NCBI GenBank assembly: GCA_010015655.1
Contig: ML976662.1
Span: forward strand, 1,415,653-1,479,652
DNA from: Bimuria novae-zelandiae CBS 107.79
Lineage: Eukaryota; Ascomycota; Dothideomycetes; Pleosporales; Didymosphaeriaceae
Reading direction: 5' to 3'
DNA: 64,000 bases
The notes under the pieces were generated by a model. The model did no database searches. It saw only the letters and a program-made list of their open reading frames with translations, and had not been told where the DNA came from. Position numbers and translations under genes: made by a program. Of the stretch, positions 38,393 to 61,200 are shown piece after piece (positions within the stretch are counted from its first letter, which is position 1; each line of letters starts with the position of its first letter).

Positions 38393-38572
38393 CTAACCCA
38401 GGGCTATATAAACATGTAGCCCTACATGTTAATAGGATCCTAGTTTTGTTAGGGATAAAATATCCGCGCTAGGCTAATTCTTCTAACCCAGGGCTGCATA
38501 AACATGTAGCCCTATATGTTAATAGGACCCTGGTTTTGTTAGGGATAGAATATCCGCGCTAGGCCAATTCTT
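38393..38572 (+). repeat. Two 90-bp 5'-end-only units of the helicase array (units 0a, 0b)
   Basis: Units at 38393-38482 and 38483-38572 repeat the first 90 bases of the helicase element (CTAACCCAGGGCTGCATAAA onward, to CAATTCTT) and then restart; the third copy at 38573 continues into the full element. The left border reads CCCTAACCC, one and a half telomere-type repeats. Differences between copies are C/T or G/A transitions. Confidence 0.93.
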
Positions 38573-41500
38573 CTAACCCAGGGCTGCATAAACATGTAGT
38601 CCTACATGTTAATAGGACCCTGGTTTTATTAGGGATAGAATATCCGCGCTAGGCCAATTCTTCTATATATATTTAAGAACGTAGCCTGTATGTTAAAGAT
38701 AGTTAACCCCACATGTTAATAGGTTCCTGTAGTCTAATTAACCCAAAATTTTAGTAACAGATTTAGCACACTAAGTTACACGTCCTAGCTAATTTATAGC
38801 ACTAAATAATATATAGTTATAGGCGTTAGGGTTGCGCGTTAGGGTTAGGGTAAATATAATAAGGCGGCGATCAGACACCGGAGGCAGCTCTAAAATAGAG
38901 ACTAACACGTAGCATAAGTAAAGACGCGTTAAGTCGCGAAGAATTCCACGCGTTAAAAAGGCTATATAGTGCGATAGGGACCTATTATTAGAACCCACCT
39001 GCAGCAGTATTAAGCCCGCTATTATAATAAAGAGTAGCATCGCAAGCGAGTATTTCGAACATTTACCTAAGTATTTATTAGCGATATGCAAAGAGTGCAG
39101 GTATAGGGTTTAGCCTAGCTAGGTAAGTAACTATTTACGGTGGATTTATTAGGGTGTTAGGCGCACGCGAGCGCAGTTAGTAGTAAATAAGCTTAGTAGT
39201 TAGGCTAGTTTACTCTAGTATGCTAATAAGCTAAAGGTGCCTAGTTAGAGCATTAAACCTATTAGCCAGTTACTAGTATACACAGATAGATTAATGTGCC
39301 AATTAGCCCTAGGCCAGTGTTATTAGATTATTTAAAGTTTCCGCATTATAAAGAACTATTGGCGCGATGTTTATAGTTAGTTACTAGTAGGTAGAAGTAG
39401 TTATCTACGTTAATTAGAGAAGCAAAGCATATAGTTACGTAGCGATTAGGGTTAGAGGCGCGTTTATTACTAACAATTGTTAGCCTAGGGCGCCAGTTCG
39501 CAGTATTTCGAGGTCCACTAACCCGAACCCACCCCTAAACCTATGGACGGCGAGGCCGGGTGGGCAAGCGTTGGCAGGAACATGGACAAGACATGAGTTA
39601 ACGTATAGAAGTAGGCTAAGATAATAATCTAGGACAGCGCGCGAGACAAGGTGAACCTATAACTAAAGTAGACTAGGTAGATACCGTATTTAGTAGGTAT
39701 AGAGTAGCCTAAATTATTAGCGAGCGTAGAAGAGCCTAAAGCTAAAGAGAAGCCTATAGCGGCCACTATATAAAAGGCTATAAATGGGTTAGCGTAGTTT
39801 AGCCAGGCGTCTATTATCCACCGCACGGGGATATTCGTGCGATTAGAAGTAATCTAGACGAAAAAGCACTAAACGCGGTTTACGCTATTATAGCCATATA
39901 TAAATAAGAAGGCGGTTAGTAACCATGCCTAGCTATAGAAGCAGATATTAATATTTTTTTAGCAAACGTAGTAAGCGCACGCGTAGAAGAGCCCTATATA
40001 CTAGTTTACCCAATAGTAGCGCGAGGCGTGGGAGGCGTTAGTAAAGGTAGTAAAAGGAGTAGTAGAGGAGGAAGAGGAGGAAGAGGAGAAAGAAATAAAA
40101 AAAATAAGAGATAGAAATAGTAGTGTAAATAAGGTAATAATAAACAACGCAAACAGTGTAGTAGGGGAGATAAAGGAGGCCAAGTAAAAGGTAAAGAAGG
40201 GTAGAATTATGGGCAAGCGCAAAGCGTTATTAAGCATTAAGAAAACGTGTTTAGCGTTTTATATTACATTATTAAGCCAGTCTATTACCCGCAAAGAGTA
40301 CAACAGCCCGTTAGTATGTATATTGGCCGTATTAGGGGTAAAGGAGGACGGGTGGAAGGGCGCCAAATAGTACCCGCCTATTTTATTAGCTATTATTAAG
40401 GTTACCTAGTTTATAGTAGTGTAGTAAGCGTTGGAATTATTAGATACATTCGCAGGAGACAACATAAATAGTAATAGTATATATAAGAGTGATAGGGATA
40501 GCACCCAGCGACAAGACTAACCGAAAGAGTATTTATAGTAGGTCTAGTAAATAATAGACAGGTTTATAGTGCGCGGCAGCCACAGCCCCATATAGTAAAT
40601 ATTAAATTTACGGACGTACGGGCTAAAGATCCATTACAACACGACGTTACGCGACTATATAGAGTGGGTAGAGCAGGACAAGTTATTATACAAGAAGCTA
40701 TAGTTTACTATGGCCCAGTTCCGCAATATAGTGCACGGGTTAAGGAAGGAGAGTTAGTAGTTATTAATAGAGGATTTATTATTTAATAATGGCCCGTTTG
40801 CCGAGCCCGTCCCTAGTATCCCATAGGAGAGTTTACGCGATAATCTAACTAATAAGTAACTAGGGTAGAATTTTTTAAAAGACCAGCGCACCCGCATGCC
40901 CGTAGATAAGAAGTAATCGTTATATAAGTAGATTGGCCAGGACGCCCAAATTAGGGACCAGTTTATAAAGCTAGGCACCCGTTCAGGCGTTAACTAGTAA
41001 GAGGTTAGGTAGTATATAGACTAAGTAGTTATATTTAGGGAGAAGTTAATTACGTTAATACATATTACAGGCGGGTAGCTAGCCAAAAGACCCGAGATTA
41101 TAAGTATCTGGCACAGCAACATAGTTAAAGGGGGCCACCGTAATATATTTATCGAGAACGGCAAGGTAGTATTTATAATAAGATACTATAAAGGGTATGC
41201 CGTTAGCAGTGACGTTAAGATTATTTATTAGTATTTACCACGCGAGGTAGGCGAGTTAGTAGTGTATTATATATGGCTAGTGTTGCCGTTCCAGCAGCGG
41301 ATAGAGGCAATAGTATAAAAGAAGAAGGCAATTTCGTTGCATATATAATTAGCCAACCCTAATAGGCGCAAGTAGACGATAGACTAATTATAAGAGGTAT
41401 TAAAACGCGAGACTAGCGTTAGATTAGGCTAGTTATTAATAATTACCGTGTACCGTAAGATCGCTATTAGTATTAGTCGACGGTTTTTATACGGGTTTAC

Positions 41501-43175
41501 GGCGTTTTAGCTAAAAGAAGGAGATAAAAGTAAGGTATAAAACAAAGAGAACACGAAAGCGTTAGTAGTAAATTTATAGGCCAGGCACACGGTGCATGTG
41601 GCGGGTATAGTATACGCACAAGATATTATAGAGTAGGCTAGGGTAATAGTAGACAAGTAGTAATAGTTTTAGATATCGAGCATAGATTAGCATTAATTTT
41701 TAGGGTTTCCGCTAGATAGTAGTAAGGAGGATAGGTACAGGAAGCAAAAGAGGGCGCCATTTAAGAGTAAGGCAAACGAGGCCAGGATAGATTAATAGGG
41801 AAGGTTAAGAAAGATAGACACCGCTAAGTAGTTATAGAGAATAGTAGATAAGACGGTAACATTTTAAAGCGTGCAGCAAGAGGCGATTAATACTATCGTG
41901 AGTAAAGAAAGCCCTATAGTAGTAGTAATACTAATAAGGGTAAGTAAGAGCATGTTATTTATATTACTAGTATAGGCTAAGTAGGGCGGCACGACTATTA
42001 TCGTCGTCCCGTTAATTACATTACGAGGTAATATAATATAATAGTATAGGAAGCTAGGGATATTATATACAGCGTAAGAGAGCCGGCGCCCGCCTAACGT
42101 AGTCATGGTAGTATTAGTAACGCCTAAGTTAACTATCACGTAGGGGTTTACCATATTCGTAAACCGTTTAAGAGCAACACGATAGTTAGACTAAATTATA
42201 ATTAATAAGTGCTATATTATGTTAAATTAGCGGTACACGTTCCGCAAGTAAATATAGTAGTTAGGCAAGTTAGTGGCCGCGGAGACGTAAATAGTGTTAT
42301 TAATAGCAACGTTGCCGCCTAGCGAAGAGAACAAGTTATTCTAATAAATATATTTTAATCCTAACTAGGTTAAGGTATTCCAAGTAGAGACGGCGCGGAC
42401 AAACGTGGTATACTAGGTAATTAAGGTAGGGAGGGTAGCAAAGAAGCAGGAGGTAGAGGGGATAATATTAGGCGTAGTATAGTAGAAGTTACGCAAGTAC
42501 AGGTAGGGCAAGGTAGTAATATATAGTAATTTAGTGCGTAAGATTAAGGCATTAGCGTAGTAGTTAGGGTGCCATGCGTATTACTACGACGCTATTAACA
42601 AGATAAGCATGTTAAAGGATTTTATATTAGGTAGTAAGCGGGTTATTATAGCTATAAGCGTGTTAGGAATAGGCGTTAACATTTCTAATATCTAGTACAT
42701 CGTCTACATTAATTAGCCGTTTTCCGTGTTGGATTACGCGCAGGAGAGCGGCCAGGTAGGATAAGATAGGGTATAAAGCAAGATAGTTATAATCGTGTAG
42801 GAAGGGTATAGCGAGTAACTAAAGATAAGTAAGAGGAGAAGGAGCATGCGTTAGTATAAGCGTTAGTAGGAGAAGGCAAGACGGCAACGTGCAGGCAGGT
42901 AGTATTGGGTAGGTATTTAGATTATAGAGAAGCAGAGCGGGTAGGGTGTAAAGAGAAGGAAGAGAAATATAATATTTATAAAGAAGGTAAAGAGATAAAA
43001 GAAGAGGAAAGTAAAGAGGGTAGTAATAAGGATAATAATAATAGAGAAGAGATAGACATAGTTAAAGTAAAGAGAAAAACTAAGAGGGAAGCAGTATAGC
43101 GTGCGTTCTAGTAATAAGAGTAGACACGATAGGGTCCGCGATAGAGGTTTATATAAGACTAGTAAGAGGCGTACG
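38573..43175 (+). mobile_element. Subtelomeric RecQ-helicase (TLH-type) element, unit 1, 4.6 kb, 3' truncated
   Basis: Starts CTAACCCAGGGCTG. About 250 bp in (38825-38852) it carries interstitial TTAGGG motifs (GCGTTAGGGTTAGGGT) and then a helicase gene. Its 3' end is cut compared with unit 8 (CGTACG at the break) and joined directly to the CTAACCC start of the next unit. RIP-type mutation is heavy. Confidence 0.88.
39024..43175 (+). pseudogene. TLH-type RecQ helicase, unit 1 copy (broken, 3' truncated)
   Basis: The start codon is mutated (ATA at 39024; unit 2 still has ATG in the same place). An N-terminal Cys/His finger (LLAICKECRY, 39078-39107) resembles the DUF3505/OrsD-type finger; a long middle region includes an acidic tract (EEEEEEEEKEI, about 40068-40096). 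The helicase core at about 41850-42760 has the Walker A region decayed to VSKSMLF, the DEAH-box region as INKCYIML, and motif VI-like DYAQESGQVGQDR. A one-base deletion in a G-run near 42807 shifts the frame before the zinc-binding tail. RecQ-family helicases near chromosome ends are known in Magnaporthe and fission yeast. Confidence 0.82.
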
Positions 43176-43763
43176 CTAACCCAGGGCTATAATTAGAGTT
43201 AGGGCTAAGTCCAGTTTTATAGTTAACTTTATTAGGGATAGAATATCCGCGCTAGGCCAATTCCTATGCGTATATTTTATTACGTAGGCTAAGTCTAGTA
43301 AACACTTACTCGCCAGTCTAGTTAGGTTCCTATAGGCTAATTAACTTAAAATTTAGGCTATAGATTCAGCGCGTTAAGTTACACGTCCTAGCCAATTTAC
43401 AGCGCTAGAAACTATATAGTTATAGGTGTTAGGGTTGCGCGTTAGGGTTAGGGTAAACATAATAAGGCGGCGATTAGACACTAGAGGTGGCTCTAAAATA
43501 GAGGCTAACACGTAGCATAAGTAAAGACGCGTTAAGTTGCGAAGAATTCCACGCGTTAAAAAGGCCATATAGTGTAATAGGGACCTATTATTAGGACCTA
43601 CCTATAGCAGCGTCGAGCCTGCTATTATGGCAAAAAGCAGTATTACAAGCGAGTATTTTAAATATTTACCTAAGCATTTATTAGCGATATGCAAAGAATA
43701 CAGGTACGGGGTTTTACCTAGTTAGGCTAGAAGCCATTTATAGCGTGTTTATAGGCTTAGTAG

Positions 43764-44217
43764 TGTTAGGTTCCATCTAAGATAGCTAATCCTAAATGGG
43801 CTATAGTTGGTTCTCGGGCAAGAGTACTAGGAGGACGGGAGAGAGTCGTAGTAATAGCTTACGCTTATTACTAGAGTGTTGGTATTAAAGGTGTGTACAG
43901 CATAATTAAATTAATAAGGTTGCTTATTCAGATCTAAACGATAGATTAATAAACAAGATTAAACACGAATATTCGGGAGGGATATTCGAGCTCTCTATAT
44001 ACATAACCTTTTCTGCCATCCTGCATCCTTTTACCATCTAACCCTTGGCGGGATAGTGCTGCCATCCGGGATGTTACTACTATCCTATTCTTGGCAGGAT
44101 GGTTCCTCTTGGCAGGATAGTAGGTCACGTGATCTTGGTAGTGTAGTTCTACTAATAGTTACCCCGCAACTGCCCATCGTTAGTCCTTAACACTTATAGG
44201 TCGCTTGGATTTTAACA
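43764..44217. repeat. Solo LTR (454 bp) of a different retroelement family, TSD AGTAG
   Basis: Starts TGTTAGGTTCCATC and ends GGATTTTAACA, flanked by the perfect duplication AGTAG (43759-43763 and 44218-44222). Removing it restores the sequence seen in units 3 and 8 (GGCTTAGTAG then AAGGAAGC). Unlike its surroundings it keeps many CA/TG dinucleotides (CATCCTGCATCC), so it is little affected by RIP. The ends are compatible with a Ty1/copia-type LTR. Confidence 0.88.
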
Positions 44218-44286
44218 AGTAGCAAGGAAGCACAGCTAGTAATAGACAAGCTTAGTAGCTAGGCCGGTTTAATATAGTATACTGGC

Positions 44287-44731
44287 TGTTATGAGGTGCA
44301 CTCGCTTAGTCCAATCCGGGTTAGGGCGGTAAGGTAATGAGGCGTCTCACGGGTTATTCAATGGTACGAGTTAATGCGACAATTAAGCGCGGTTAAATAA
44401 TCTAATCTTATAGTAAATAAGATAACTATTAGTCTATATAGGAGAAGGTACTCGCACAGAAGATATTTTAGTTAACTACAAGGAGCGTATAAAGGAAACC
44501 ATCCTGTATATATATCCTCCTTGTCCTATAGAGTCCCATGGTATCCCATATCCTAATCTTGTGGGATCCCATGGGATTTCCTGGGACGTTACGTGACCCT
44601 GGGTCACGTGGTCCCATAATATCCCATAGTCTTGGCGCCTGGGACAGCCTAGGACATTACGTAAGTCGGAGGTGGGGCCTAGTTGTCGTTATAAGGCCTA
44701 TTATCCCACCATTAACTTCTAGTCCGTAACA
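44287..44731 (-). repeat. Gypsy B 3' LTR (left, 445 bp)
   Basis: TGTTATGAGG to CCGTAACA on the plus strand. Less mutated than its partner at 50820-51264 in the first 100 bases. Contains the GGGTCACGTGG cluster also present in the solo LTR at 280-729. Confidence 0.95.
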
Positions 44732-44844
44732 CTATCCTCCTCCCTCCTCTGCATGTCCTTATGCAGTAGCCAATATCCTCTTAGAGTACCCTCTATTATT
44801 ATTCTATTAGAGATTAAATAAACTCAATTAGTTAGATTACTATA

Positions 44845-45230
44845 GTGTCCTGCAAGTATTACGTAAAGAAGGGCTTAACCTATAAGCTATTGTCTCTTAA
44901 GGCGTAGTGTTATAATTACTATAAAAATGGCGTCGTAAAGTATAAACCGCTAGAACCCGCGGTTCTAAACTTCTCCCGAATTAATTCTAAGGTAAACAGG
45001 CTTAAGCGTTTGGAGGAGGCGACAGCTATTAAAGAAGAGTTAGCTATAGTAGCCCTCTAGACTACTTAAGCGAAAAGGAAGAGATTAATAAAGCAGAAAC
45101 GTTTACTTAAAAAGCGTAAGGAGAAGCTCCTTACTAACTTAATAAAATTCGTTAAGGAGATTAAACGCCTTAAGGGGCTAAAAGAGTTAGGCCGGGATAT
45201 TATATAGCTAGAGGGGGCCTCATGCCTAGT
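44845..45230 (+). pseudogene. Antisense accessory ORF of gypsy B: Cys-rich start plus coiled coil (broken)
   Basis: On the strand opposite to gag-pol, between the 3' LTR/purine tract and the chromodomain end of pol, a frame reads SCKYYVKKGLTYKLLSL, then CYNYYKNGVVKYKPLEPAV, then a long Lys/Glu/Leu coiled coil (NRLKRLEEATAIKEELAI; KRLLKKRKEKLLTNLIKFVK). Several Tyr occupy positions that look like former Cys (TGY to TAY is the RIP change), suggesting two CxxC-type clusters before the coiled coil. No LTR-retrotransposon core function fits it. It corresponds to the antisense ORF of gypsy A at 6500-6940. Stops are TAG/TAA only. Function unknown. Confidence 0.7.
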
Positions 45231-48200
45231 ACCTTTACCCTTAACTAGGCTATTTACCCTCTGCCCTTTAATCCTAATAAACCTAAGACCTCTGTCTCCT
45301 AGGCTTTTCTAGGTATTCCTGGTAGAACCTCGCCAGAGCGTCTTCGCAGTTAGTAAGGTTCCTTGCTAGTTCCTATATATTATGGCTCTCCGGCCATCCT
45401 TCCCATTTCACTAGGTACTTATACTAACGTCCAATTTTCTATAGGTCTCTAATTGCTTTAACCTTATATTCCTTGTCCTCGAGTTCGAGTTATGTTTCTA
45501 GTTCGGCGTCTAGTAGTGCTAGTTTTAATAATAATTTATGGAAAACTAGGTGTATGCGTGTGTCTATAGGTAACTGTAGTTTAAAATTAACTAGGCCTCT
45601 GACCTCTTAGATTTCAAATAGTCCTTTTTAAAGGTTATCTAGTTTCTTGCTTAGTCGTGTTATTTTAAGGTTTTTTTTATAAGAGGAGAACTCTATCCCC
45701 CTTTTTAAAGGTTAGTCCCTTAATCCTTTTCTTATTTGCGCTTCTTACCGTTTGCAAGTTCTACTAGGTAATATTCTTACGTAATATTTTATATAATTCT
45801 CGCATAAGTTCTACTTTTTCGGTTGCGTTCTTCGCGACGCTTTTAATATCTAGTAGATCCCGGTAAGCCATTAGTTCACATCTATGGTTGGCGTAGTAGG
45901 GCGAGTGCCCTGTAGTTACCGATTTTACGCTATTATATGCTAACTAGGCTATTAGTAATAGCTTAACCTAGTTATCTTAAAGCTTATTTACATATATCTA
46001 GAGGTACTGTTCTAAGGATTAGTTCGTTCGTTTAGTTTATTTATCTATTTGGGGGTGGAAGCTCGTCGTAAGCTTATGTTTTATCCCTAATTTTACTATA
46101 AACGTGGTCTAGTACAAAGATATGAATATTCTTGCTCTATTGGTAATAAACTCGTCTAGTTGTCTAACTTATGTAATAAGTTCTCGTTTCACTATATAGG
46201 CAAGTTCTTTAGCTGGCATAACCTCTTAGATTAGTATAAATCTTAATTTCTTGGTAAGTTAATTAACTATAACTAAGATTAAATCGTATAGGCGTTTATT
46301 CCCTGGTGCTAATAATGCTGGTAGCTTTATAATAAAGTCTATAGTTACACTAGACCATGATTATAGGGGTAGTTACAGTGGCTGCAAAAGACCGTAGGGC
46401 TTATATCTCTTGGGCTTATTTTGGTGACATGCCAAACAGTTGCCAATAACCTTCTATACTAATAGTCGCAACCTAGGAATGGCGTATTTATTCGCGATCC
46501 TACGCGTTGTTTCCGCGATTCCCGGGTGTCCCTAGTCCTTATCTTTATGTAGTATTTTAATTAGTAGTAGTGCTACTTATTTATGTATTCTAACCCTGTT
46601 CCTATAGTCCTTCGTGGGTAATTTCATGGTTTCTTAGAGATCGTATGCGTGCCAATCTTTATCCGTAAGCCCGGCGTAGTCCTGGGCGCTATTTATAAAT
46701 AGTCCGTAATAGGTAAAGTCTACACGTCGCGCATCTAATATTGGCGCAAGTTGTGTTTTATTATAGCGCAGGGTTCTATTCCTTACTTTTATAAGAATAG
46801 CGTTATAGTCCAGACTACCTTCTTCTTCTATAAGGTTAGAGCGTTGGCTAAGTGCGTTTACCGCTCTATTAGCACTCTCTACCAGGTAGGTAATTTAAAA
46901 GTCGTATTCTACTAGTTATTTAGACTATTTAGCCTGTCTTCGATTAAGCTTCTTCGTTATTATAAAGCGAGTGAGATTTAATTAGTTAGAAAATACTTCT
47001 ACCTAGTGTCTAGCTCCCTTAAGCTATGCTTCCTATTACTTAAAGTAATCTATAATTGCTAAGAGTTCCTTATTATAGATCTCGTAGTTAAGTTCTGCTC
47101 CTAAGAACTTCCTTAAATGGTAGAATACTAGTCTCTATTTCTTATTATTATATTCTTATAGGAGTATAGCTCCTAGCGCGTAGTCTAATGCGTTAGTATA
47201 GATACGATGTTGCTATTTAGGGTTATATATCTATAGTAATAGCGCGGTTAAAAACAGGCGCTTTAGCTTCTCAAAAGCCTCCTATTCCTCCTTTCGCAAT
47301 AGTCGCCATTTACTAATCTTTGTAAGCTTGGTTAGCGGAGTAGTTATCTTAAAGTAGTTCCTAATAAATTTATAATAAAAGTTAGTGAAGCCTAAGAAAG
47401 ACTAGATGTCTTTTACTAATTCTAGTAGTAGTTATTCTTCTATTATCGCAATCTTCTTCGGATCCATCTTAACGCCCTCTCGGGATATTACGAATCCTAG
47501 GTACTCCGTTTCCGTGACGTAAAACTCGCATTTCTTCGGGTGTAGGAGCAGCCTGTGCTCCTATAGTTTCCGAAGTACCTTTTAAACGTGCTCTTTATAT
47601 TCCTTTAAGGAACCGCTCGAATAGATCAGCACATTATCCAGATACGCTATATAGAATACGTCTAAGTATTCGTGCAGAACTCGGTTTATAAGTTCCTAAA
47701 AGGTTACTAGGGCGTTCGTTAGGCCCATTGGCATAACCGTGTACTCGAAAAGACCGTATCGTGTACGAAAGGCGGTTTTCCATTCGTGTCCTCTGGCAAT
47801 TCGTATTTAATAGAATCCGTCCCAGATATTAAATTTCGTGAACCACTTAGCTCCGCGGAGTCGATCCATGAGCTCCGTGATTAGGGGTAAAGGGTATTAG
47901 TTCTTAATTATTAGGGCGTTTAGCTACCTATAGTCTACACAGAGCCGAAGTCTGCCGTCTTTCTTTAGTATAAAGAGTATTAGGAAGGCCGCAGGACTCT
48001 AACTAGGCTACTATTTCCCTAAGCGGAGATTCTTCTCTAATAACTCTTTTAACTCTCTTTCCTAGTCTTGTGTAAGAGGCCTTAGGCGCTCTGGCCATAA
48101 CTTAGCTCCCTCTACTAGTAGTATCTCGTGATCCTACTCCTAGTGTTTAGGTAAGACTATCTTATTATATTCCTCGAACAAGTCTGCGAATTCCTTATAT

Positions 48201-50796
48201 TCTGTTAGTAGACTAGGGTTCTCGTTAACTGTCTTAGCTAATTGTACCTACATATAACGCACCTATTCTAGGTGTTATTATATAACTTAATCTATTTTAT
48301 AAATTAATATCTTTTATATTATAGATATGTTGTACTTCTTCCTCGCCTAAGGTTCCTGAAGTTTCTCCTATTACCGAGGCTTATTCGGAGTTATCGTTAG
48401 CTTTTTCCTGGGTAGGATCGTCCTGGATATCTAGTTTATCTCTAGATTATATCGTTCGAGCCATTTATATCTAATAATAGCCTTAATATCACCTATCTCT
48501 ATAATAGTAAATATGTGTTGGCTTTCTAGGCCCTTAATGTTAACCTATACTAGTGCGGTTTCTAATTATAACTAATTATTACCGTATCCTTACGATCGGA
48601 TCCCGTCCGCGAGTCTTATTTATAGTAGTGTTTTCTTATTCTAATATAGTATATTATATTTTTTAACTACTTCTAGGGATATTAAACACGCGTCTACCCT
48701 TGAGTTAATTAGTGCTAGTACACGGCACCCGTGTACTATAATATCCTTAATTAAGCGTTTCTCGACTTGGCGAGTGTCTACTTAATAAGCCATAATAATT
48801 ACACTATTACTAGTGTGGCTTGTTGCCTAGTAATAGCCTAGTTTTTTAAATTGTTGGATTTATTATCTAAGATTTTAGGCTAACTGGCGTTAGCTTCTTT
48901 AATCTAGCCTTGGACCTTAGATAGCGTAGAGACTTTCTATACCTTATGCCACGTATATCGTTGCTGGTATATAGTGTAGAATTCTCGGATCCTATCGGAT
49001 TCGTATACTCTGGGTATTCCGTGCTAGATATATCTTAGGGTAAGGCATTCGTAGTTTAATAAGGCGTTATACTTTAAACCTTCCTATGCTAAGACTACTT
49101 TTTCTTAAAGGCTTAGGTGCGCTAAGTACTATAGGTTATATTAATCTTAAGTAAGCTTTATGTAGTCTTTGTCCTCTCTTAGTTAGATATCCCCTATTGT
49201 CGTGTTAAGGTCGCAGGGATCCAGGCCCTAAGAAAACTATCCTGTCTCGAATTTTTGCTATTAGTGCAGTTCGTAGTTATCCTTAAAGCATGTATGCTAC
49301 CTATTCCACTTATAGTGCTTTGTCCAGTATATAGGAAAATGCTTATGGTAGTTATTAGGTACATTACACTAGTTCTTTTTTAAGCGATAATACTTAGAGT
49401 CCCCTAGAATATATACGGTCTAAACTTAGGCCTTAGAATACTAACGGCATCCTTTGCGCGTGCATTGCCACTATTTAGCGTAATCGTGTTGCTTAAGTGC
49501 CATTACCTAACGTAGGTACTATTCTAGTAGGCCTTATAGTTTCTTAGCACGCTAATAGACGTCCTATACGTATAGTCCTTACACGATAACCTTCGCTTTA
49601 TATTATAACGAGTAGTGTAACTTACTATTGCACATCTAATAGATATTATTAGCAAGCTACTAATAGATCTAGTGTTCCTAGAGGACTATTCGTTCCTCCT
49701 ACTATTTAGCTAATTCTAGAATCTCTTGTGTAAGATCTACTTCGTTTATTACCGCTAGTGTAAGAGTGGCTATTACTACTCGGACAAGGTTAGTTATATT
49801 AACCTTAGTTTTCCGCTTTTCGCAGTCCTTGGCAAAGTGTCTTTACTCTCTATAATATAGGCATGCCTTATTTTTAAACCTTTATTCACGTTCCTTAGGC
49901 AAAAGTCCATCCTTTCACTAATAAGACTTCTAGGGCCTCTTGCCCTTATTCGCCTATTTCTTGTGCCAGCGGGCTTTATTAGTTATAATAACGTCTCCGT
50001 CTCGGTCCCTGGCTATAGGTCGATTTCCCGAGTCCCTCTTAGAGAATATTCGGCTGCCATGTTGCTTCTCTAGTTTTCGCTCGAAGAGACGGTTGTCCGC
50101 GGTAATAGCGTTATTTATAAGTTCGTCTAAATCGTCTGCCTTTGTCTGGTGTACCAGTTCGTCCTTAACTAATTCTTTTAGCCCGTTATAATAGGTAATT
50201 ATGAGTAGGGCTTCTCCCTATCCCTTTAGTTCTGCTGTAATCTGCTTAAACTCTAGTGTATAGAGTATCGCCGACCTTTCTTATTAGAGTCGTTAAAGGC
50301 GTATCTCTGCCTAGTGTTCTTTATTAATCGTGCTAAATATTCTTCTTATAGCCTTATAAAAGAACTCCTAACTTTTAAAGGCTTCCTTTATAGCTTCTAA
50401 TTTATATTTCTTAAGCTCGCTATGCTTAAGGAAATCGTTAATTATTAGTTAGGCCTATATAGCTACCTTGTCCTACATGTTTATAAAAGCGACTAAGATC
50501 TTATCTTATTCTATCTTAAACCTCCCTAGGTTATAACGGTTAAACAGTTCTATCTGCGTTAGAAATATTCCTGGGTAACCCTTTCTAGTATAGGGTTCTG
50601 GCTTTAGGACCTTTAGTTAATGCTTCGTATTCTCCTACTTACTCATCTTCTCGCCTATCTCGTTAATAATTTCTTGGAGCTAAGAGATCTAAGCTACTTG
50701 TTCGGCCACGACTTCCACAGGGTCTCGGTCCTGGATTTAGGCTATTGGGGCCAGGGCAGCGGGCTTGGCTGCTAGGGTAGTACTTAGTCCTGCTAT
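45230..50796 (-). pseudogene. Gypsy B gag-pol (broken)
   Basis: Minus strand. The gag start codon is mutated to ATA at 50796-50794 (B' has ATG followed by the same Ala-Gly). The zinc knuckle lies at about 49865-49805 (HFAKDCEKRK). The protease region is near 48750-48500, and RT at about 48100-47500, with the catalytic box decayed from YLDD to YLDN near 47610. RNase H lies about 47300-46850, the integrase about 46550-45850, and a chromodomain-like end about 45440-45310 (YLVKWEGW-type, intact Trp). Long antisense frames on the plus strand here (for example 49940-50191) are shadows. Confidence 0.85.
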
Positions 50797-50819: not shown

Positions 50820-51264
50820 TGTTATAAGGTGCACTTACTTAGTCTAATCTAGGTTAGGGCGGTAAGGTAATAAGGCGTCTCACGGGTTATTTAATAGTAT
50901 AAGTTAATGCGACAATTAAGCGCGGTTAAATAATCTAATCTTATAGTAAATAAGATAACTATTAGTCTATATAGGAGAAGGTACTCGCATAAAAGATATT
51001 TCAGTTAACTATAAGGAGCGTATAAAGGAAACTATTCTATATATATATCCTCCTTGTCCCATAGAGTCCTATGGTATCCTATATCCTAACCTTGTGGGAT
51101 CCCATGGGATTTCCTGGGACGTTACGTGACCCTGGGTCACGTGGTCCCATAATATCCTATAGTCTTGGCGCCTGGGACAGCCTAGGACATTACGTAAGTT
51201 AGAGGTAGGGCCTAGTTGTCGTTATAAGGCCTATCGTCCCACCGTTAACTTCTGGTCCGTAACA
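50820..51264 (-). repeat. Gypsy B 5' LTR (right, 445 bp)
   Basis: TGTTATAAGG to CCGTAACA on the plus strand. Same length as the left LTR. Followed on the minus strand by CTTTAACTACCC, the leader also found after the B' LTR, probably including the primer-binding site. Confidence 0.95.
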
Positions 51265-51283
51265 CTGGCGAGCTAGAGGCGCC

Positions 51284-53502
51284 CTAACCCAGGGCTGTAA
51301 CTAGAGTCAGGGCTAAGTCTAGTTTTGTAGTTAACTTTGTTAGGGATAGAATATCCGCGCTAGGCCAATTCCTGTGCGTATATTTTATCACGTAGGCTAA
51401 GTCTAGTAAATACTTACTCGCCGGTCTAGTTAGGTTCCTATAGGCTAATTAACCTAAAATTTAGGCTATAGATTTAGCATGTTAAGTTACACGTTCTAGC
51501 TAATTTACAGCGCTAGAAACTATATAGTTATAGGTGTTAGGGTTGCGCGTTAGGGTTAGGGTAAACATAATAAGGCAGCGATTAGACACTAGAGGTAGCT
51601 TTAAAATAGAGGCTAACACGTAGCATAAGCAAAGACGCGTTAAGTCGCGAAGAATTCCACGCGTTAAAAAGGCTATATATTGCAATAGGGACCTATTATT
51701 AGGACCTACTCGCAGCAGCGTCGAGCCCACTATTATAGCAAAGAGTAGTATTGCAAGCGAGTATTTTAAATATTTACTTAAGTATTTATTAGCGATATGC
51801 AAAGAATGCAGGTACGGGGTTTTACCTAGCCAGGCTAGAAGCCATTTATAGCGTGTCTACTGGCTTAGTAGTAAGGAAGCGTAGCTAGTAGTAGATAAGC
51901 TTAGTAGTTAGGCTGGTTTAATATAGTATGCCGGCGAGCTAGAGCCGCCCCGTTAGACTATTAAGCCTATTAGTTAGTTGCTAGTGTATACGAACGGGTT
52001 AATATGCCAATTAGATCTAAATCGATGTCACTAGATATTTTAAAGCGAAGAGGTTATAAGGAAGCATTAGTAAAAGGTGTATAATTAGTTACTAGCAGGT
52101 AGAGGTAGTTATCCTAGTTAAATAGAGCGGAAGCGCATATAGTTACGCAATAAGCAGGGTTATAAAGCCGTCTATTATTAGCAATTATTCGCCTAAGGCG
52201 CTAGTTCGCAGTATTTCGAGGTCCACTAACCTAATTCCACCCCCGAACCCGTAGACGGCGAGGCCAAGTGGGTAAGCGTTGGCAGGAACATAAACGAGGC
52301 GTGGGCCAACGTGTAGAAGCGGGCTAGGACGACAATCCAGGATAGCGCGCGGGATAAAGTGAATCCATAGCTAGAGCAGACTAGGTAGATACTATATTTA
52401 GTAAATATAAAGCGGCCTAAATTATTAGCGAGCGTAAAAGAGCCTAAAGCTAAAGAGGAGCCTATAGCAGCCACTATATAAGAGGCTATAGATAGGTTAG
52501 CGTAGTTTAGCTAGGCATCTATTATCCACCGCATAAGGATATTCGTGCGATTAGAAGTAATCCAAACAAAGAAGCACTAGATACGGTTTACGCTATTATA
52601 GCTATATATAGATAAGAAGGTAGTTAGCAACCATGCCTAGCTATAGAAGTAAATATTAATATTTTTTTAGTAGACGCAGCAAGCGCACGCGTAAAAGAGC
52701 CCTACGTACTAGTTTACCTAGCGGTAGCGCGAGGCGTGGGAGGCTTTAGTAAAGATAGTAGGAGGAGCGGCAGAGGCGAAAGAGAAGGAAGAGATAAAAG
52801 AGATAGGAGATAGAAAGGTAGATAAGGTAATAATAAATAACGCAGACAGTGCGGTGGGGGAAATGGAGGCTAAGTAGGAGGTAAAGAAGGGTGGAATTAT
52901 AGGCGAGCGTAAAGCGTTATTAAGTATTAAGAAATTATATTTAGTGTTTTATATTATATTATTAAGCCAGTCTATTACCCGCAAAGAGTACAACAGCCCG
53001 TTAGTATATATATTAGCTATGTTAGGGGTAAAGGAGGATAGGTAGAAGGGCGCCGAATAGTATCCGCCTATTTTATTAGCTATTATTAAGGTTACCTAGT
53101 TTATGGTAGTGCAGCAGGCGTTAGAATTATTAGATACATTTATAAGAAACGATATAGATAGCGATAGCGCGTACGAGAGTAATAAGGACAGCACCTAGCA
53201 ATAGGGCTAACTAAAAGGGTGTTTATAGTAGGTCTAGTAGATAATAGACAGGTTTATAATACGCGATAGCCACAGCCCCATGTAGTAAATATTAGATTTA
53301 TAGACGTACGGGCTGAAGATCCATTACAACACGACGTTACACGGCCATGTAGAGTGGGTAGGGCAGGACGAGTTATTATATAAGGAGCTATAGTTTACTA
53401 TAGCCTAGTTTCGCAGCATAGTGCACGGGTTAAGGGAGGAGAGTTGGTAGTTATTAATAGAGGATTTATTATTTAGTAACAGCCCGTCCGCCAAGCCCGT
53501 CC
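51284..53502 (+). mobile_element. Helicase array unit 3 (2219 bp, 3' truncated)
   Basis: Second 5' subtype (CTAACCCAGGGCTGTAACTA). Contains interstitial TTAGGG motifs (51535-51562) and the start of the helicase gene (mutated start ATA at 51735), including the finger, and ends in the middle region at CCCGTCC, where unit 1 continues CTAGTATCCC; here CTAACCTAGGG of the next unit follows. The helicase core is missing. Confidence 0.88.
51735..53502 (+). pseudogene. TLH-type helicase, unit 3 N-terminal fragment
   Basis: Carries the N-terminal finger and middle region only, without helicase motifs. RIP-type stops throughout; cut at 53502 by the junction to the next unit. Confidence 0.75.
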
Positions 53503-53531: not shown

Positions 53532-54425
53532 CTAACCTAGGGCTACTTAAAAATATTACCTAATATTTTAATAGTAGCGTTATTTTATTAGGAATAAAAT
53601 ATCCGCGCTAGCTACTTCCTATGCGTACGTCTAAGAACGGGGGTAATATTTTAAAGATACTAAAGGTAACATTTCGATAGGTTCTCGCGGGCTAGTTTAC
53701 CCTAACTTTGGACTTAAGATTTAGGGTTACGAGTTGCACGTCTTAGCCAATTTGCAGCGCTAGAAACTATATAGTTATTAGCGTTAGGGTTACGCGTTAG
53801 GGTTAGGGCAAACATAATAAGGCGATAATTAGACACTAGAGTTAATTCTAAGATAAGGACTAACGTGTAGCAGAAGCAAAAACGCGTCGGAACGCGAAAA
53901 ATTATAGGAGTTAAAATAGCTATATAGCGCGATAGATGGCTCGCAGGTAGCTGCAGTAACGTGTATTTAATTACTATTACCTAGTATTACGCATAACGCA
54001 GCTAGCAACCCGTTCCGCAACCTATATACCGTGTAGTGACTAGTATAGTAAACCGCATAGTTATTAATAGTAGCAACGCGTCGCAGCAATCCATAACTTA
54101 TTATAAAGCCTAGGGATTCGTTATAGCACCTATAACCCGTTTAGTAGCCTATAACCTATTACAGGAACCCATTAAAAACCCAGGCGCAGTAGCGTCGAGT
54201 CTGGTATTATAGTAGAGAGTAGCGTCGTAGGCAAGTATTTTAAACATTTACCTAAGTATGCGTTAGTAATTTGTAAAGAATATAGGTACGGCGTTTTGCC
54301 TAGCCACGCCAGGAGCTATTTATAGCATGTCTATAAGGGGGTTAAACGCGAGTAAGCATAGTTAGTAGCTAATAAGCTTTAGAGTTAGGCTAGTGTAATA
54401 TAGTATGCCAGCGAGCTAGAAGTGC
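53532..54425 (+). mobile_element. Helicase array unit 5 (894 bp), divergent subtype
   Basis: Starts CTAACCTAGGGCTACTTAAA and differs clearly from the other units in its first 600 bp, including an extra segment (about 53930-54180) not seen elsewhere. It keeps TTAGGG motifs (53783-53810), the degraded helicase start (ATA near 54209) and the finger region, and ends GAGCTAGAAGTGC before the next CTAACCC. Confidence 0.8.
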
Positions 54426-54472
54426 CTAACCCAGGGCTATATAAACATATAGCCCTATATATTAATAGGACC
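54426..54472 (+). repeat. 47-bp micro-unit of the helicase array (unit 6)
   Basis: First 47 bases only (CTAACCCAGGGCTATATAAA to ATAGGACC), then the next CTAACCC. In unit 0a the same place reads ATCCTAG, in most other copies CCCTGG. Confidence 0.88.
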
Positions 54473-57400
54473 CTAACCCAGGGCTGCATGAACATATAGC
54501 CCTACATGTTAATAGGATCCTGGTTTTGTTAGGAATAGAATATCCACGCTAGGCCAATTCTTCTATGTATATCTAAGAACGTAGCCCGTATATTAAAGAT
54601 AGTTAACCCTACATGTCGATAGGTTCCTGTAGTCTAATTAACCTAAAATTTTAGTAACAGATTTAGCACACTAAGTTACACGTCCCAGCCAATTTGCAGC
54701 ACTAAATAATATATAGTTATAGGCGTTAGGGTTGCGCGTTAGGGTTAGGGTAAATATAATAAGGCGGCGATTAGACACTAGAGGCAGCTCTAAAATAGAG
54801 ACCAACGCGTAGCATAAGCAAAGACGCGTTAAGTCGTAAAGAATTTCACGCGTTAAAAAGGCTATATAGTGCAATAGGGACCTATTGTTAGAACCTACCC
54901 GCAGTAGCGTCGAGCCCGCCATTATAGCAAAGAGTAGCATCGCAAGCGAGTATTTCGAATATTTACCTAAGTATTTATTAGCGATATGCAAAGAGTGTAG
55001 GTACAGGGTTTAGCCTAGCTAGGCAAGTAACTATTTATAATAGATTTATTAGGGTGTTAGGCGCACGCGAGCGCAGTTAGTAGTAAATAAGCTTAGTAGC
55101 TAGGCTAGTTTACTCTAGTATGCTGGCGAGCTAGAGGTGCCTAGTTAAAGTATCGAACCTATTAGCTAGTTACTAGTATACATAGACAGATTAATGTGCT
55201 AATTAGCCCTAGGCTAGTGTTGCTAGATTATTTAAAATTTCCGCGTTATAAAGAACCATTGGCGCCATGTTTATAGTTAGTTACTAGTAGGTAAAAGTGG
55301 CCATCTACGTTAATTAGAGAAGTAAAGTATATAGTTACGTAGTAATTAGGGTTAGAGGCGCGTCTATTGCCAACGATTATTAGCCTAGGGCGCCGGTTTG
55401 CAGTATTTCGAGGTCCACTAACCCAAACCCACCCCCGAACCCGTGGACGGCGAGGCCGGGTAGGTAAGCGTTGGCAGGAACATGGACAAGGCGTGGGCCA
55501 ACGTGTAAAAGCGAGTTAAGATAATAATCTAAGACAGCGCGCAAGACAAGGTGAACCTATAGTTAGAGTAGACTAAGTAAATACTATATTTAGTAGGTAT
55601 AAAGTGGCCTAAATTATTAGTAAGCGTAAAAGAGCCTAAAGCCAAAGAGGAGCCCGTAGTGGCTACTATGTAGGAGGCTATAAATAGGTTAGCGTAGTTT
55701 AGCCAGGCGTCTATTATCCACCGCACAGGGATATTCGTGCGATTAGAAGTAATCTAGACAAAGAAGCACCAGACGCGGTTCACGCTATTATAGCTATATA
55801 TAGATAAAAAGGCGGTTAGTAACTATGCCTGGCTATAGAAGTAGATATTAATATTTTTTTAGCAAACGCAGCAAGCGCACGCGTAAAAGAGCCCCACGTA
55901 TTAGTTTACCTAGTGGCAGCGCGAGGCGTGGGAGGCGTTAGTAAAGGTAATAGAAGGAGCGGCAGAGGAGGAAGAGGAAAAAGAGAAGGAAGAGATAAAA
56001 GAGATAGGAGACAGAAATAGTAGTGTAAATAAGATAATAATAAATAACGTAGATAGTGCGGTGGGAGAGATAAAGGCCAAGCAGGAGGTAGAGGAGGCTA
56101 GAATTATAGGTAAGTATAAAGCGTTATTAAGCATTAAGAAATCGTGTTTAGCGTTTTATATTATATTATTAAGCTAGTCTATTACTTGTAAAGAGTACAA
56201 CAGCCCGTTAGTGTGTGCATTAGCTATATTAGGGGTAAAGGAGGATAGGTAGAAGAGCGCCGAATAGTACCCGCCTATTTTATTAGCCATTATTAAGGTT
56301 ACCTGGTTTATAGTAGTGTAGTAAGCGTTGGAATTATTAGATATATTCGCAGGAGACGACATGGATAGCGATAGCGTATATAAGAGTAATGGGAATAGCA
56401 CCCAGCGACGGGGCCGGCCAAAAGGGTGTTTATAGCAAGTTTAATAAATAATGGACAGGTTTATAGTGCGCGGCAGCCACAGCCCTATGTAGTAGATATT
56501 AGATTTACGGACGTACGGGCTAAAGATCCATTATAACACGACGTTACGCGGCCATGTAGAGTGGGTAGGGCAGGACGAGCTATTATATAAGGAGCTATAG
56601 TTTACTATGGCCTAGTTCCGCAGCATGGTGCACGGGTTAAGGGAGGAGAGTTAGTAGTTATTAATAGAGGATTTATTATTTAGTAACGGCCTGTCCGCTA
56701 AGCCTATTCCTAGTATCCCGTGGGAGAGTTTGCGCGATAATCTAACTAATAAGTAACTAGGGTAGAATTTTTTAAAAGACCAGCGCACTCGCATGCCCGT
56801 GGATAGGAAGCGGTGGTTATATAAGCGGGTTAACCAAGATGCCCGAATTAGGGACTAGTTTATAAAGCTAAGCACCCGTTCAGGCGTTAACTAGTAAGAA
56901 GTTAGGCGGTATATAGACTAGGTAATTACATTTAGGGAGAAGTTAATCGCGTTAATGTATATTACGGGCGGGTAGCTAGCTAAAGGGCCCGAGATTATAA
57001 GCATCCGACACAGTAACATAGTTAAAGGGGACTACTATAATATATTTGTTAAGGATAGCAAGGTAGTGTTTGTGACGAAATACTATAAAGGGTATGCTAT
57101 TAGCAGCGACGTTAAGATTATTTACTAGTATTTACCACGCGAGGTGGGCGAGTTAGTAGTGTATTATATATGGCTGGTGTTGCCGTTCTAGTAGTAGATA
57201 GAGGTAATAGTATAGAAAAAGGAGGTAATTTTATTATATATATAGCCAGCCAACCCCAACGAGCGCAAGTGGACGACGAACTAGTTATAAGAGGTATTAA
57301 AACGCGAGACTAGCGTTAGATTAGGCTAGTTATTAATAATTGCCACGTACCGTGAGATTGCTATTGGCATTAGTTAACGGTTTTTACGCGGGTTCACGGC

Positions 57401-58237
57401 GTTTCAGCTAAAAGAAGAAGATAAAAGTAAGACATAAAATAAAGAAAACACAAAAGCGTTAGTAGCGGATTTATAGGCCGGGCACATAGCGCATGTGGCG
57501 GGTATAGTGTACGCACGAGGCATTATAGAGTAGGCTAGGGTAGTAGTAAATAGGCAATAGTAGTTTTAGATATTAAGTACGGATTAGTATTAATTTTTAA
57601 GGTTTTCGCTAGATAGTAGCGAGGAGGATAGGTGCAGGAAGCAAAAGAGGGCGCCGTTTAAGAGCAAGATAGATAAGGCTAGGATAGATTAGTAGGGAAG
57701 GTTAAGAAAGATAGACACCGCCGAGCAGTTGTAGAGGATGGTAGGCAAGATAGTAATATTTTAAAGCGTGTAGCAAGAGGCAATTAATGCCATTATAGGC
57801 AGAGAGAGCCCCGTGGTGGCGGTAATACTAATAGGGGTAGGTAAGAGCATGTTATTTATGTTGCTGGCGTAGGCTAAGTAGGGTAGCACGACTATTATCG
57901 TCGTCCTGTTAATTACATTATAAGGCGACATAATATAGTGGTGTAGGAAGCTAGGAATATTATATACAGCGTGGAAGAGCCAGCACCCGCCCGACGTAGC
58001 CGCGATAGTATTAGTAACGCCCGAGTTGGCTATTACGCAAGGGTTTACCATATTCGTAAACTATTTAAGAGTAACATAGTAGTTAGACTAGATTGTGATT
58101 AACAAGTGCTATATTATATTAAATTAGCGGTATATATTCCGTAAGTAGATATAGTAGTTAGGCAAGTTAGTGGCCGCAGAGACGTAAATAGTGTTATTAA
58201 TAGTAACGTTACTACCTAGTAAAGAGGATAAGTTGTT
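54473..58237 (+). mobile_element. Helicase array unit 7 (3765 bp, 3' truncated)
   Basis: First 5' subtype. Long copy closely matching unit 1, including TTAGGG motifs (54722-54752), finger, acidic tract and the first half of the helicase core. It ends GATAAGTTGTT at 58237, where units 1 and 8 continue CTAATAAATAT, and is joined to CTAACCC of unit 8. Confidence 0.88.
54924..58237 (+). pseudogene. TLH-type helicase, unit 7 copy, cut inside the helicase core
   Basis: Mutated start (ATA at 54924). Reaches the Walker A region (about 57838-57860, GVGKSMLF-like and less decayed than in unit 1) and the DEAH-box region, then is cut before motifs IV-VI. RIP-type stops are common. Confidence 0.78.
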
Positions 58238-61200
58238 CTAACCCAGGGCTGCAACTAGAGTCAGGGCTAAGTCTAGTTTTATAGTTAACTTTGTTAGGGA
58301 TAGAATATCCGCGCTAGGCTAATTCCTGTGCGTATATTTTATCACGTAGGCTAAGTCTAGTAAACACTTACTCGCCGGTCCAGTTAGGTTCCCATAGGCT
58401 AATTAACCCAAAATTTGGGCTATAGATTTAGTACGTTAAGTTACACGTCCTAGCCAATTTGCAGCACTAGAAACCGTGTAGTTATAGGTGTTAGGGTTGC
58501 GCGTTAGGGTTAGGGTAAATATAATAAGGCGGCGATCAGACACTAAAGGCGGCTTTAAAATAGTGACTAACACGTAGCACAAGCAAAGACGCGTTAAGTC
58601 GCAAAGAATTCCACGCGTTAAAAAGGCCATACAGTGCAATAGGGACCTATTATTAGGACCTACTCGCAGCAGCGTTGAGCCCGCCATTATAGTAAAAAGT
58701 AGTATTGCAAGCGAGTATTTTAAACATTTACCTAAGCATTTATTAGCGATATGCAAAGAATACAGGTACGGGGTTTTACCTAGCCAGGCTAGAAGCCATT
58801 TATAGCGTGTTTATAGGCTTAGTAGTAAGGAAGCGTAGCTAGTAGCAGACAAGCTTAGTAGCTAGGCTAGTTTAATATAGTATGCCGGCGAGCTAGAGGC
58901 GCCCTATTAGACTATTAAGCCTATTAGCCAGTTGCTAGTGTATACGAACGGGTTAATATGCCAATTAGATCCAGATTAATATTACTAGATATTTCGAAGC
59001 GAAGAGGTTATAAGAAAGCATTAGTAAAAGGTGCATAATTAGTTACTAGTAGGTAGAGGTGGTTATTCTAGTTAAATAGAGTAGAAGCGCATACAGTTAC
59101 GTAATAAGTAGGGTTATAAAGCTATTTATTACCAGCAATTATTCGCCTAAGGCGCCGGTTTGTAGTATTTTAAGGTCTACTAACCCGACTCCACCCCCGA
59201 ACTCGTGGACGGCGAGGCCGGGTGGGCAAGCGTTGGCAGGAATATGGATAAGGCGTGGGCTAATGTGTAAAAGCGGGCTAGGATAATAATTTAGGACGGC
59301 GCGCGGGATAAAGTGAATCTATAGCTAGAGTAGACTAGGTAGATGCTATATTTAGTAGGCATAGAGTAGCCCGAATTATTAGTAAGCGTAGAAGAGCCTA
59401 AAGCCAAAGAGGAGCCTATAGCGGCTACTATATAGGAGGCTATAAATAGGTTAGCGTAGTTTAGCTAGGCGTCTGTTATCCACCGCACGGGGATATTCGT
59501 GCGATTAGAAGCGATCTAGATAGAGAAGCACTAAACGCGGTTCACGCTATTATAGCTATATATAGACAAGAAGGTAGTTAGCGACTATGCCTAGCTATAG
59601 AAGTAAATATTAATATTTTTTTAGTAGACGTAGCAAGCGCACGCGTGGAAGAGCCCTACGTACTAGTTTACCTAGTGGCAGCGCGAGGCGTGGGAGGCTT
59701 TAGTAAAGGTAGTAGGAGGAGCGGTAGAGGAGAAAGAGGAGGAAGAGGAGGAAGAGGAGGAAGAAAAGGAAGAGGAAGAAGAGGAGGAAGAGGAAGAAGA
59801 GAAGGAAGAGAAGAAAGAGATAAAAGAGATAAAAGACGGAAATGGCGGTGTAGATAAGGCAATAATAAATAACGCAGATAGTGTAGTAGGAGAGATAAAG
59901 GCTAAGTAGGAGGTAAAGGAGGGTGGAATTATAGGCAAGCGCAAAGCGTTATTAAGTATTAAGAAATTATGTTTAGCGTTTTACATCGCATTATTAAGCT
60001 AATTTATTACCTATAAAAAGTACGATAGCCCGTTAGTGTGTGCATTAGCCATGTTAGGGGTAAAGAAAGATAGGTAGAAGGGCGCCAAATAGTACCTACC
60101 TATTTTATTAGCCATTATTAAGGTTACCTAGTTTATAGTAGTGTAGTAGGCGTTAGAATTATTAGATATATTCGTAAGAGATGATATAGACAGCGATAGC
60201 GCGTACGAGAGTAATGGGGATAGCACCCAGTAATAGGGCTGGCTAAAAGGGTGTTTATAGCACGTTTAGTAGATAATAGATAGGTTTATAGTACGCGGTA
60301 GCCACAGCCCCATGCAGTGAATATTGGATTTACGGACGTATAGGCTAAAGATCCATTATAACACGACGTTACGCGGCCATGTGGAGTGGGTAGGGTAGGA
60401 CGAGTTATTATATAAGGAGCTATAGTTTACTATGGCCCAGTTCCGCAGCATGGTGCACGGGTTAAAGGAGGAGAGTTAGTAGTTATTAATAAAGGATTTA
60501 TTATTTAGTAATAGCCCGTCCGCCGAGCCTATCCCCAGTATCCTGTAGGAGAGTTTACGCGATAATCTAACTAATAAGTAACTAGGGTAGAATTTTTTAA
60601 AAGACCAGCGCACCCGCATGCCCGTGAATAAAAAGTAGTAGTTATATAAGCGGGTTAGTTAGGACGCCCGGATTAGGGACTAGTTTATAAAACTAGGCAC
60701 CTGTTCGGGCGTTAACCCGCAAGAGGTTAGGCGGTATATAAACTAGGTAGTTATATTTAGAAAGAAGTTAATTACGTTAATATATATTACGGGCGGACAG
60801 CCAGCTAGAGGACCTAAGATTATAAGTATTTAGCACAGCAACACAGTTAAAGGGGGCCACTATAATATATTCGTTAAGGACGGCAAGGTGGTGTTTGTGA
60901 CAAGATACTATAAAGGGTATACTATTAGTGGCAACGTTAAGATTATTCACTAGTATTTGCCGCGCGAGGTGGGCGAGTTAGTAGTATATTATATATAGCT
61001 AGTGTTGCTGTTCTAGCAGTGGATAGAGGCGATAGTATAAAAAAAGGAGGCAATTTCGTCGCATATATGGCTAGCTGACCCTAATAGACGTAAGTAGACA
61101 ACGGACTAGTTGTAAAAGGTATTAAAACGCGAGACTAGTGTTAAATTAGGCTAGCTATTAATAATTACCGCGTACTATAAGATTACTATTAGTATTAGTT

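Follow-up and report, generated by a model that had tools for sequence, protein, structure and literature searches.

An array of helicase units at the right-hand end of contig C7

The window, a 64-kb stretch of the Bimuria novae-zelandiae genome (77.4 Mb, 191 contigs), spans C7:1415653-1479652 at the right-hand end of contig C7 and carries a tandem array of a telomere-linked helicase (TLH) element. Ten CTAACC[CT]AGGG unit starts lie here head to tail, all on the + strand (chance expectation, 0.9), as an earlier note on this DNA had reported. The anatomy of this and other arrays shows that chromosome tips are replaced at the word CTA by an incoming tip with an exact inner end, without a reciprocal product being seen. 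The units are as follows (slashes mark cuts):

38393..38482, + strand: unit 1, a 90-bp leader-A fragment ending ...AATTCTT/CTA (breakpoint A90)
38483..38572, + strand: unit 2, a 90-bp leader-A fragment with a breakpoint identical to that of unit 1
38573..43175, + strand: unit 3, leader A, cut at unit position 4673 (uninterrupted copies: C[TC]AGTAT)
43176..51283, + strand: unit 4, leader B, unit positions 1-666, with insertions at 43765-44217 and 44287-51266
51284..53502, + strand: unit 5, leader B, cut at 2297 (GTCC/CTAGTAT); it opens a block common to C7 and C189
53503..53531, + strand: unit 6, a 29-bp mini-unit cut at the midpoint of the inverted repeat in the leader (GTAGCC/CTACATG)
53532..54425, + strand: unit 7, leader C, cut at GTGC/CTAG
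54426..54472, + strand: unit 8, a 47-bp mini-unit (GGACC/CT[GA]G)
54473..58237, + strand: unit 9, leader A, cut at about 3825 (GTTATT/CTAA)
58238..64000, + strand: unit 10, leader B, terminal and untruncated, with an AT-rich tail following at the end of the contig
38839..38850, + strand: internal TTAGGGTTAGGG, found 265-266 bp inside each longer unit, in G-strand orientation toward the telomere

The internal TTAGGGTTAGGG recurs in the other longer units at 43442, 51550, 53797, 54739, and 58504. Four of the ten 'units' are tiny (29, 47, 90, and 90 bp). The earlier note held that every unit is cut at a different 3′ point, but the junctions at 38483 and 38573 share one breakpoint and those at 51284 and 54426 nearly one, leaving seven positions; nor is the last unit (58238) truncated, its reading-frame relic being complete (58689-63401) and followed by the AT-rich tail. 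The larger insertion in unit 4 (44287-51266, minus strand) is a relic, damaged by repeat-induced point mutation (RIP), of a Ty3/gypsy chromovirus-type long terminal repeat retrotransposon with reverse transcriptase, RNase H, integrase zinc finger, and chromodomain; at the ends of the smaller one (~450 bp, 43765-44217), the unit coordinates overlap by 6 bp.

Unit joints coincide with CTA across the genome

The start motif CTAACCCAGGGCT occurs 122 times in the genome. Together with CA and CTAACCT variants, we fetched 144 starts from 41 contigs, leaving 5 of 138 CTAACCCAGGGCH matches and 3 of 14 CTAACCTAGGGC matches unfetched; two starts of a further variant, CTAACCCAGGGCGG (on C149 and C154), lie outside the 144. 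Breakpoints were analyzed at the 105 junctions for which an uninterrupted copy could be aligned at ≥78% identity, after exclusion of 36 of the 144 junctions lacking an uninterrupted copy within the fetched DNA and of three more with <78% identity or N. At 93 of these 105 junctions the uninterrupted copies, taken together, share a stretch of at least three bases with CTAACCC; in the single closest copy this holds for 64/105.

Collapsed to 42 distinct breakpoints, CTA was present in at least one uninterrupted copy at 34, against a background of 5.0–8.1% of positions, and the closest copy (most frequent value) read CTA at 21/42, compared with 2.7–3.3% of words. The coincidence of CTA with the breakpoints, which the earlier note had wished to see tested against chance, is therefore real and exceeds chance. 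The eight breakpoints without CTA read CTT (2), CCA (2), CTG, CCG, CCT, and TGG, and at several of the 34 CTA breakpoints CTA is the minority allele, CCA or CCG being commoner; RIP turns CCA into CTA. Within the unit body, 59 of 63 junctions fell on the 185 positions that read CTA in at least 10% of copies, three on the 20 CT-only positions, and one on the other 4363 positions. Counted by positions used, this amounts to 20/185 CTA-allele positions versus 3/4383 others.

Usage of these sites is uneven. Ten CTAAC positions account for 35 junctions, and breakpoint 2843 was seen about 20 times. The dinucleotide CC precedes CTA in 22 of 94 distinct flanks (versus 7.5%), so homology to the telomere-like word is sometimes longer than CTA itself. 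Very short units are over-represented, with 24/94 junctions inside the first 140 bp. At ten or more loci, 29-bp mini-units stop at leader-A position 29, the inverted-repeat centre before CTA, and are followed by leaders of all three types. Where the acceptor was DNA outside the reference unit (n = 8), the uninterrupted copy read CTA in four cases and CCA, CTT, CTG, or TGG in the others.

For the window itself, CTA had been proposed at seven of nine junctions. A majority of comparable genome-wide copies agrees at 38483/38573 (59%), 53503 (79%), 53532 (100%), 54426 (25/25), and 58238 (about 60%), whereas the case for 51284 is weaker: its flank is shortened by an insertion and had no comparison copy in flank matching, and the 16-base flank recurs on contig C78, where the closest copy reads CTA, yet only 1/40 copies do so overall. 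CTA is indeed rare at 54473 (7 CTAG versus 66 CTGG among uninterrupted copies). At 43176 the comparison copy had been given as CCA; this is the reading of the remaining copies, but CTA occurs in 1/3 flank-matched or 2/4 aligned copies.

The exact unit start faces the centromere

Since the list of 144 starts had been built with the start motif, we tested the fixedness of the start in two further ways. A 23-base leader core, AGGGCTGCATGAACATGTAGCCC, occurs 36 times in the genome, preceded by CTAACCC in 35 cases and by the CTAACCT variant in one (on C162), i.e. by the unit start in 36/36. A protein search, in which 30 of 266 candidate helicase copies were scored, found CTAACC[CT]AGGGC upstream of all 30, each full length or nearly so. 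Within the fetched DNA, which had been selected around starts, no credible 5′-truncated unit was seen (66 matches reach the unit start; the two exceptions are close to a low-complexity gap or a segment edge), and target DNA was not seen to resume after the element, whose outer ends are variable.

Of the 144 starts, 138 point toward the nearer contig end; C76, C153, and the 13.8-kb C189 hold the six exceptions. Tracts of (TTAGGG)n, each 90–95 bp long and probably trimmed, mark ten contig ends, and at six of them (C4, C34, C44, C48, C128, and C174) TTAGGG directly abuts a cut helicase unit whose 3′ cut point differs each time. Because the telomere tracts sit on the cut ends, the truncated side of a unit is the telomere side, and CTAACCC is the centromere-facing, exact inner end of the incoming tip. 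The earlier note had placed the intact CTAACCC ends on the telomere side; the polarity is the reverse.

These six contig ends form a natural series of healed ends. Three starts that point away from the nearer contig end (C76:313916, minus strand; C153:54448 and 64894, minus strand) are possible internalized or inverted tips. Just inside the telomere repeats of C161 (C161:1-160), TTAGGG pieces are oddly mixed with A-runs (aaaaaaaaaagggttagggttaaaaaaaaacaggttagggtt), which sets this border apart from the nine others.

Leaders share the centre of a subterminal inverted repeat

Directly after CTAACCCAGGGC, the leaders of types A, B, C, and D bear an inverted repeat with arms of 9, 7, 9, and 9 bp, respectively, all centred at unit position 28.5. 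Three of these are represented in the window, and D belongs to a second unit family:

54491..54510, + strand: subterminal inverted repeat of leader A, centre at unit position 28.5 (one mismatched pair here; geometry taken from other leader-A copies)
58253..58278, + strand: subterminal inverted repeat of leader B, centre 28.5
53550..53569, + strand: subterminal inverted repeat of leader C, centre 28.5
C105:242289-244873; C34:28530 and 18114; C78:24373; C153:54448 and 64894: family D loci

Leaders A and C are related (31/48 identical), and at four pairs the consensus arms of the two are different on both sides yet still complementary; leaders B and D show no visible relationship. The four leaders are consequently not four independent cases, and the chance of 4e-6 for four coinciding centres, calculated as if they were, overstates the strength of the coincidence. 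In leaders A and C the repeat centre holds CTA, and in A it is the hot breakpoint that yields the 29-bp mini-units. As leader DNA folding energies are unremarkable for A and B (z −0.58 and 0.91) and only modest for C (−2.16), the argument rests on the shared repeat centre rather than on stability. Within leader A, no more than 81% of cells pair, with few double changes.

Family D is a divergent second unit family with a weak OrsD match, beginning with CTAACC[CT]AGGGCT followed by the inverted repeat. On C105 it extends to the telomere; for the copies on C153 and C34, the match to that of C105 covers only its first 205 bp. Family D DNA also serves as the acceptor of the arrays on C32 and C128.

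The helicase gene contains a putative tyrosine recombinase

The terminal unit retains the relic of a single large gene:

58689-63401, + strand: relic of a 1550-aa OrsD / tyrosine-recombinase-fold / RecQ helicase gene (tblastn to homologue P0121, 59% identity; many stop codons)
58716..59039, + strand: OrsD domain (PF12013) relic
60807..61337, + strand: five recombinase catalytic positions (R683 to Y859 of P0121), two of the five mutated in this unit
61590..62501, + strand: RecQ-type helicase relic (PDB sequence match to RECQ5/RecQ1; Helicase_C)

The helicase domain matches RECQ5/RecQ1 structures with an E-value of 6e-14, and DEAD and Helicase_C are both found in homologues P0121, P0122, P0147, and P0176. 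Homologues are known in Alternaria, Pyrenophora, Plenodomus, and Didymella, the named relatives being mostly Pleosporales. Between OrsD and RecQ, a fold search on homologue P0197 found the fold of a tyrosine recombinase (YR) catalytic domain in the middle region. Its residues R683, K718, R806, H850, and Y859 (P0121 numbering) are kept in 115 of the 116 homologues that cover all five, with an H-to-Y spacing of 9; the H of the HxxR motif is not conserved as H. Sequence profiles gave no YR match (Pfam, PDB hmmsearch, hhalign against XerD+Cre); the available text of one report describes tyrosine recombinases as very divergent in sequence (PMC3212892). The helicase gene appears to carry also a putative tyrosine recombinase that could make the CTA joints. 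A six-frame search of the terminal unit revealed no reverse transcriptase at E-values up to 0.01, the only domains there being OrsD and Helicase_C.

Terminal units are complete and tips move as blocks

Of 16 contig ends sampled, twelve fall within AT-rich DNA (GC 0.08–0.20) and four within the last part of a unit. Among the matches listed, the tail of the window resembles the ends of C19, C31, C32, C42, C47, and C53 (82–93%), and that of C20 at only 65–67%. Terminal units are complete: 28 of 31 protein matches extend to residue 1547–1550, the other three being the telomere-capped C4 and C174 copies and one half of the split C7 copy. GC content is lower in inner units (39 units; rho −0.44, p 0.005), with 0.425 in terminal versus 0.416 in internal units (p 0.03); the TA/AT dinucleotide index of RIP showed no trend with array position (p 0.17). 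Among the 30 scored helicase copies, C154:9652-14289 is the least damaged (77% to P0121; 31 stops versus about 100 or more elsewhere) and possibly the youngest.

Positions 51282-54586, a block that includes four internal junctions, align with C189 over 3306 bp (90.6%). The block opens two bases before a CTAACCC start and sits on different acceptors in C7 and C189, from which it follows that the moving unit is the distal tip from the unit start outward, and that it was duplicated; within the block's first unit, homologous exchange could have occurred as well. The [B129/B] blocks on four contigs cluster weakly (96.6% among themselves versus 93.8% to others), and for this reason were left unused as evidence of one lineage.

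Inward of the array, the window holds a GC-rich gene with an AMP-binding domain (13568-17347), whose C-terminal part is common to fungal proteins, some of them named non-ribosomal peptide synthetase or gramicidin S synthetase.

How new tips may be delivered

We tentatively read the array as a stack of dead TLH tips whose joints were made by the element's own putative recombinase—an interpretation we consider quite possible, though short of probable. The anatomy itself gives the steps of each one-way replacement: a subtelomere cut back to CTA was joined to the exact inner end (5′-CTAACCCAGGGC, then the inverted repeat) of another tip; the incoming tip continues to the telomere, the old unit remains, truncated at CTA, and the array extends outward. 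As for the enzyme, the YR-fold region of the element protein may exchange strands between the end site and a selected CTA, with CTA as the 3-bp core; extension of the event to the chromosome end by the fused RecQ helicase, by replication, or by both may then leave no surviving reciprocal product. Such an enzyme could explain why there is a single exact end, a 3-bp word, and a dyad, along with the recombinase fold, an attraction that we weigh with the same reserve. What speaks against it is that a recombinase alone leaves the missing reciprocal products unexplained; an acentric donor molecule, or a single-strand exchange followed by copying, would be needed and would account for the one-way outcome. 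In integrons, one-strand exchange is completed by copying. Reciprocal recombination and ordinary circle insertion were rejected, no 5′-truncated or resumed unit having been seen in the fetched DNA, as was the idea of a Helitron-like one-ended transposition, the unit showing OrsD and Helicase_C only.

A serious if somewhat doubtful competitor is host repair by telomere-attrition-induced replication (TAIR) in its microhomology-mediated form (MM-TAIR), or by microhomology-mediated break-induced replication (MMBIR), in which an eroded subtelomere with the 3′ end CTA(A) would be primed on another tip's telomere-like CTAACCC and would copy that tip to its end, no element enzyme being needed. In TAIR or MMBIR, donor entry points are not expected to be confined to one base, yet a single exact donor base was found in 30/30 protein-found units and 36/36 leader cores, though CTAA words occur throughout the donor; the shared inverted repeat and the YR fold are likewise left unexplained. 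Primer polarity does fit (at a right end, the 3′ strand ending in CTA copies telomere-ward), sites with longer homology are used far more, CC is enriched before CTA, and the C7/C189 multi-unit block on different acceptors is what duplicative copying gives. Moreover, TAIR and one microhomology-mediated case are described in the available text on Pyricularia TERT mutants (PMC8381367).

The remaining explanations fare worse. RNA- or cDNA-templated addition, whereby a chromosomal 3′ end CTA is extended on a transcript whose end or beginning coincides exactly with the unit start, as in telomeric retroelements, seems improbable. Target-primed copying usually leaves one exact end, one variable end, and 3-nt pairing, which the exact and variable unit ends resemble, and the excess of very short units points the same way; but the terminal unit has no reverse transcriptase in six frames, and since a multi-unit block with its internal junctions was transferred between C7 and C189 and terminal units are full length, unit-by-unit reverse transcription was set aside. 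That homologous exchange merely spread a few ancient junctions among arrays is very unlikely: the recurrence of breakpoint 2843 and the block shared by C7 and C189 would suit it, but 42 distinct breakpoints remain, 34 of them with CTA, acceptors outside the reference unit still read CTA in 4/8, and such exchange spreads junctions without being able to create them at CTA. The earlier note had an eroded telomere ending in GGGTTAG invade an internal TAG/CTA of another subtelomere and copy out to its end. This accommodates CTA at the breakpoints and one intact end per unit, but the telomere lies on the other side (6/10 telomeres; 138/144 outward units); as the units read outward, a 3′ end GGGTTAG cannot be the invading eroded end, the eroded or cut partner being the one that ends in CTA, and the model is highly improbable. 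Its broader picture is nonetheless supported: the events look like additions in one direction, each supplying a chromosome with a new tip. An assembly artefact is scarcely credible despite 916 masked N bases in the fetched DNA, for the identical base-exact pattern recurs on 41 contigs, some of which reach real telomeres.

Going beyond the joints, the TLHs of this group might be chromosome-end mobile elements of a new kind, a proposal that we regard as rather doubtful at present: YR–RecQ fusions that would cap broken or chosen subtelomeres by recombining their single end site (CTAACCCAGGGC plus dyad) with CTA and so deliver a complete tip with its telomere, the arrays being the fossil record of one-ended transpositions and RIP both killing the element and making new CTA targets from CCA.

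Relation to known chromosome-end systems

Subtelomeric RecQ helicase genes are already known in fungi, and the formation of truncated arrays has so far been ascribed to general repair. In Mycosphaerella graminicola, for example, the accessible text reports 13 TLH copies on nine chromosomes, six of them truncated (PMC4522978). The units described here resemble fungal TLHs as multi-copy RecQ helicase genes at chromosome ends with truncated copies, and differ in their exact inner end, in having outer cuts at CTA, and in the tyrosine-recombinase fold that separates OrsD from RecQ. No literature combining 'telomere-linked helicase' with 'tyrosine recombinase' was found in a search that most subscription papers and bioRxiv preprints lay outside; 'subtelomeric', 'RecQ', and 'tyrosine recombinase' co-occur there in a single paper, on Trypanosoma cruzi.

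Pyricularia TAIR, including its microhomology-mediated form, likewise involves duplicative capture of subterminal sequence by compromised ends and tandem arrays with truncated copies (available text of PMC8381367), but there the ends keep small telomere vestiges or use interstitial telomeres, whereas the junctions seen here have no TTAGGG vestige and a one-base donor entry. Microhomology at the joint and duplicative distal copying are common to TAIR/MMBIR and the present arrays; the unrestricted donor entry to be expected of TAIR/MMBIR is not seen here.

With DIRS and Crypton elements, whose recombination substrate words are given as 3 bp and 4–6 bp in the accessible text (PMC3266345, PMC3212892), the TLH units have in common the YR catalytic residues and a short shared word at the recombination point, here CTA; they differ in having a fused RecQ helicase and a single defined end, with no reverse transcriptase found and no resumed target DNA seen. 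Constant and truncated ends in chromosome-end arrays are also typical of the telomeric retrotransposons MoTeR and FoTeR (PMC12857005, accessible portion), which, however, encode reverse transcriptase and carry chromosome-oriented telomere repeats at the constant end, whereas here the motif is inverted and no reverse transcriptase was found. TATE of Leishmania braziliensis is telomere-associated, classed with DIRS/YR elements, and clustered in tandem at one position of the telomere hexamer; according to the available text it is a retrotransposon inserted within telomere repeats (PMC6681497), while the junctions here lie in subtelomeric DNA.

Taken together, the donor end fixed to the base, the 3-bp core, the dyad common to the leaders, and the recombinase fold offer a testable enzymatic explanation for the delivery of new tips. 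Even with host repair, the 42 distinct breakpoints form a natural archive, unusually rich, of the microhomologies chosen at eroding chromosome ends; if the element's own recombinase made the joints, TLHs would join TATE as telomere-resident tyrosine-recombinase elements.

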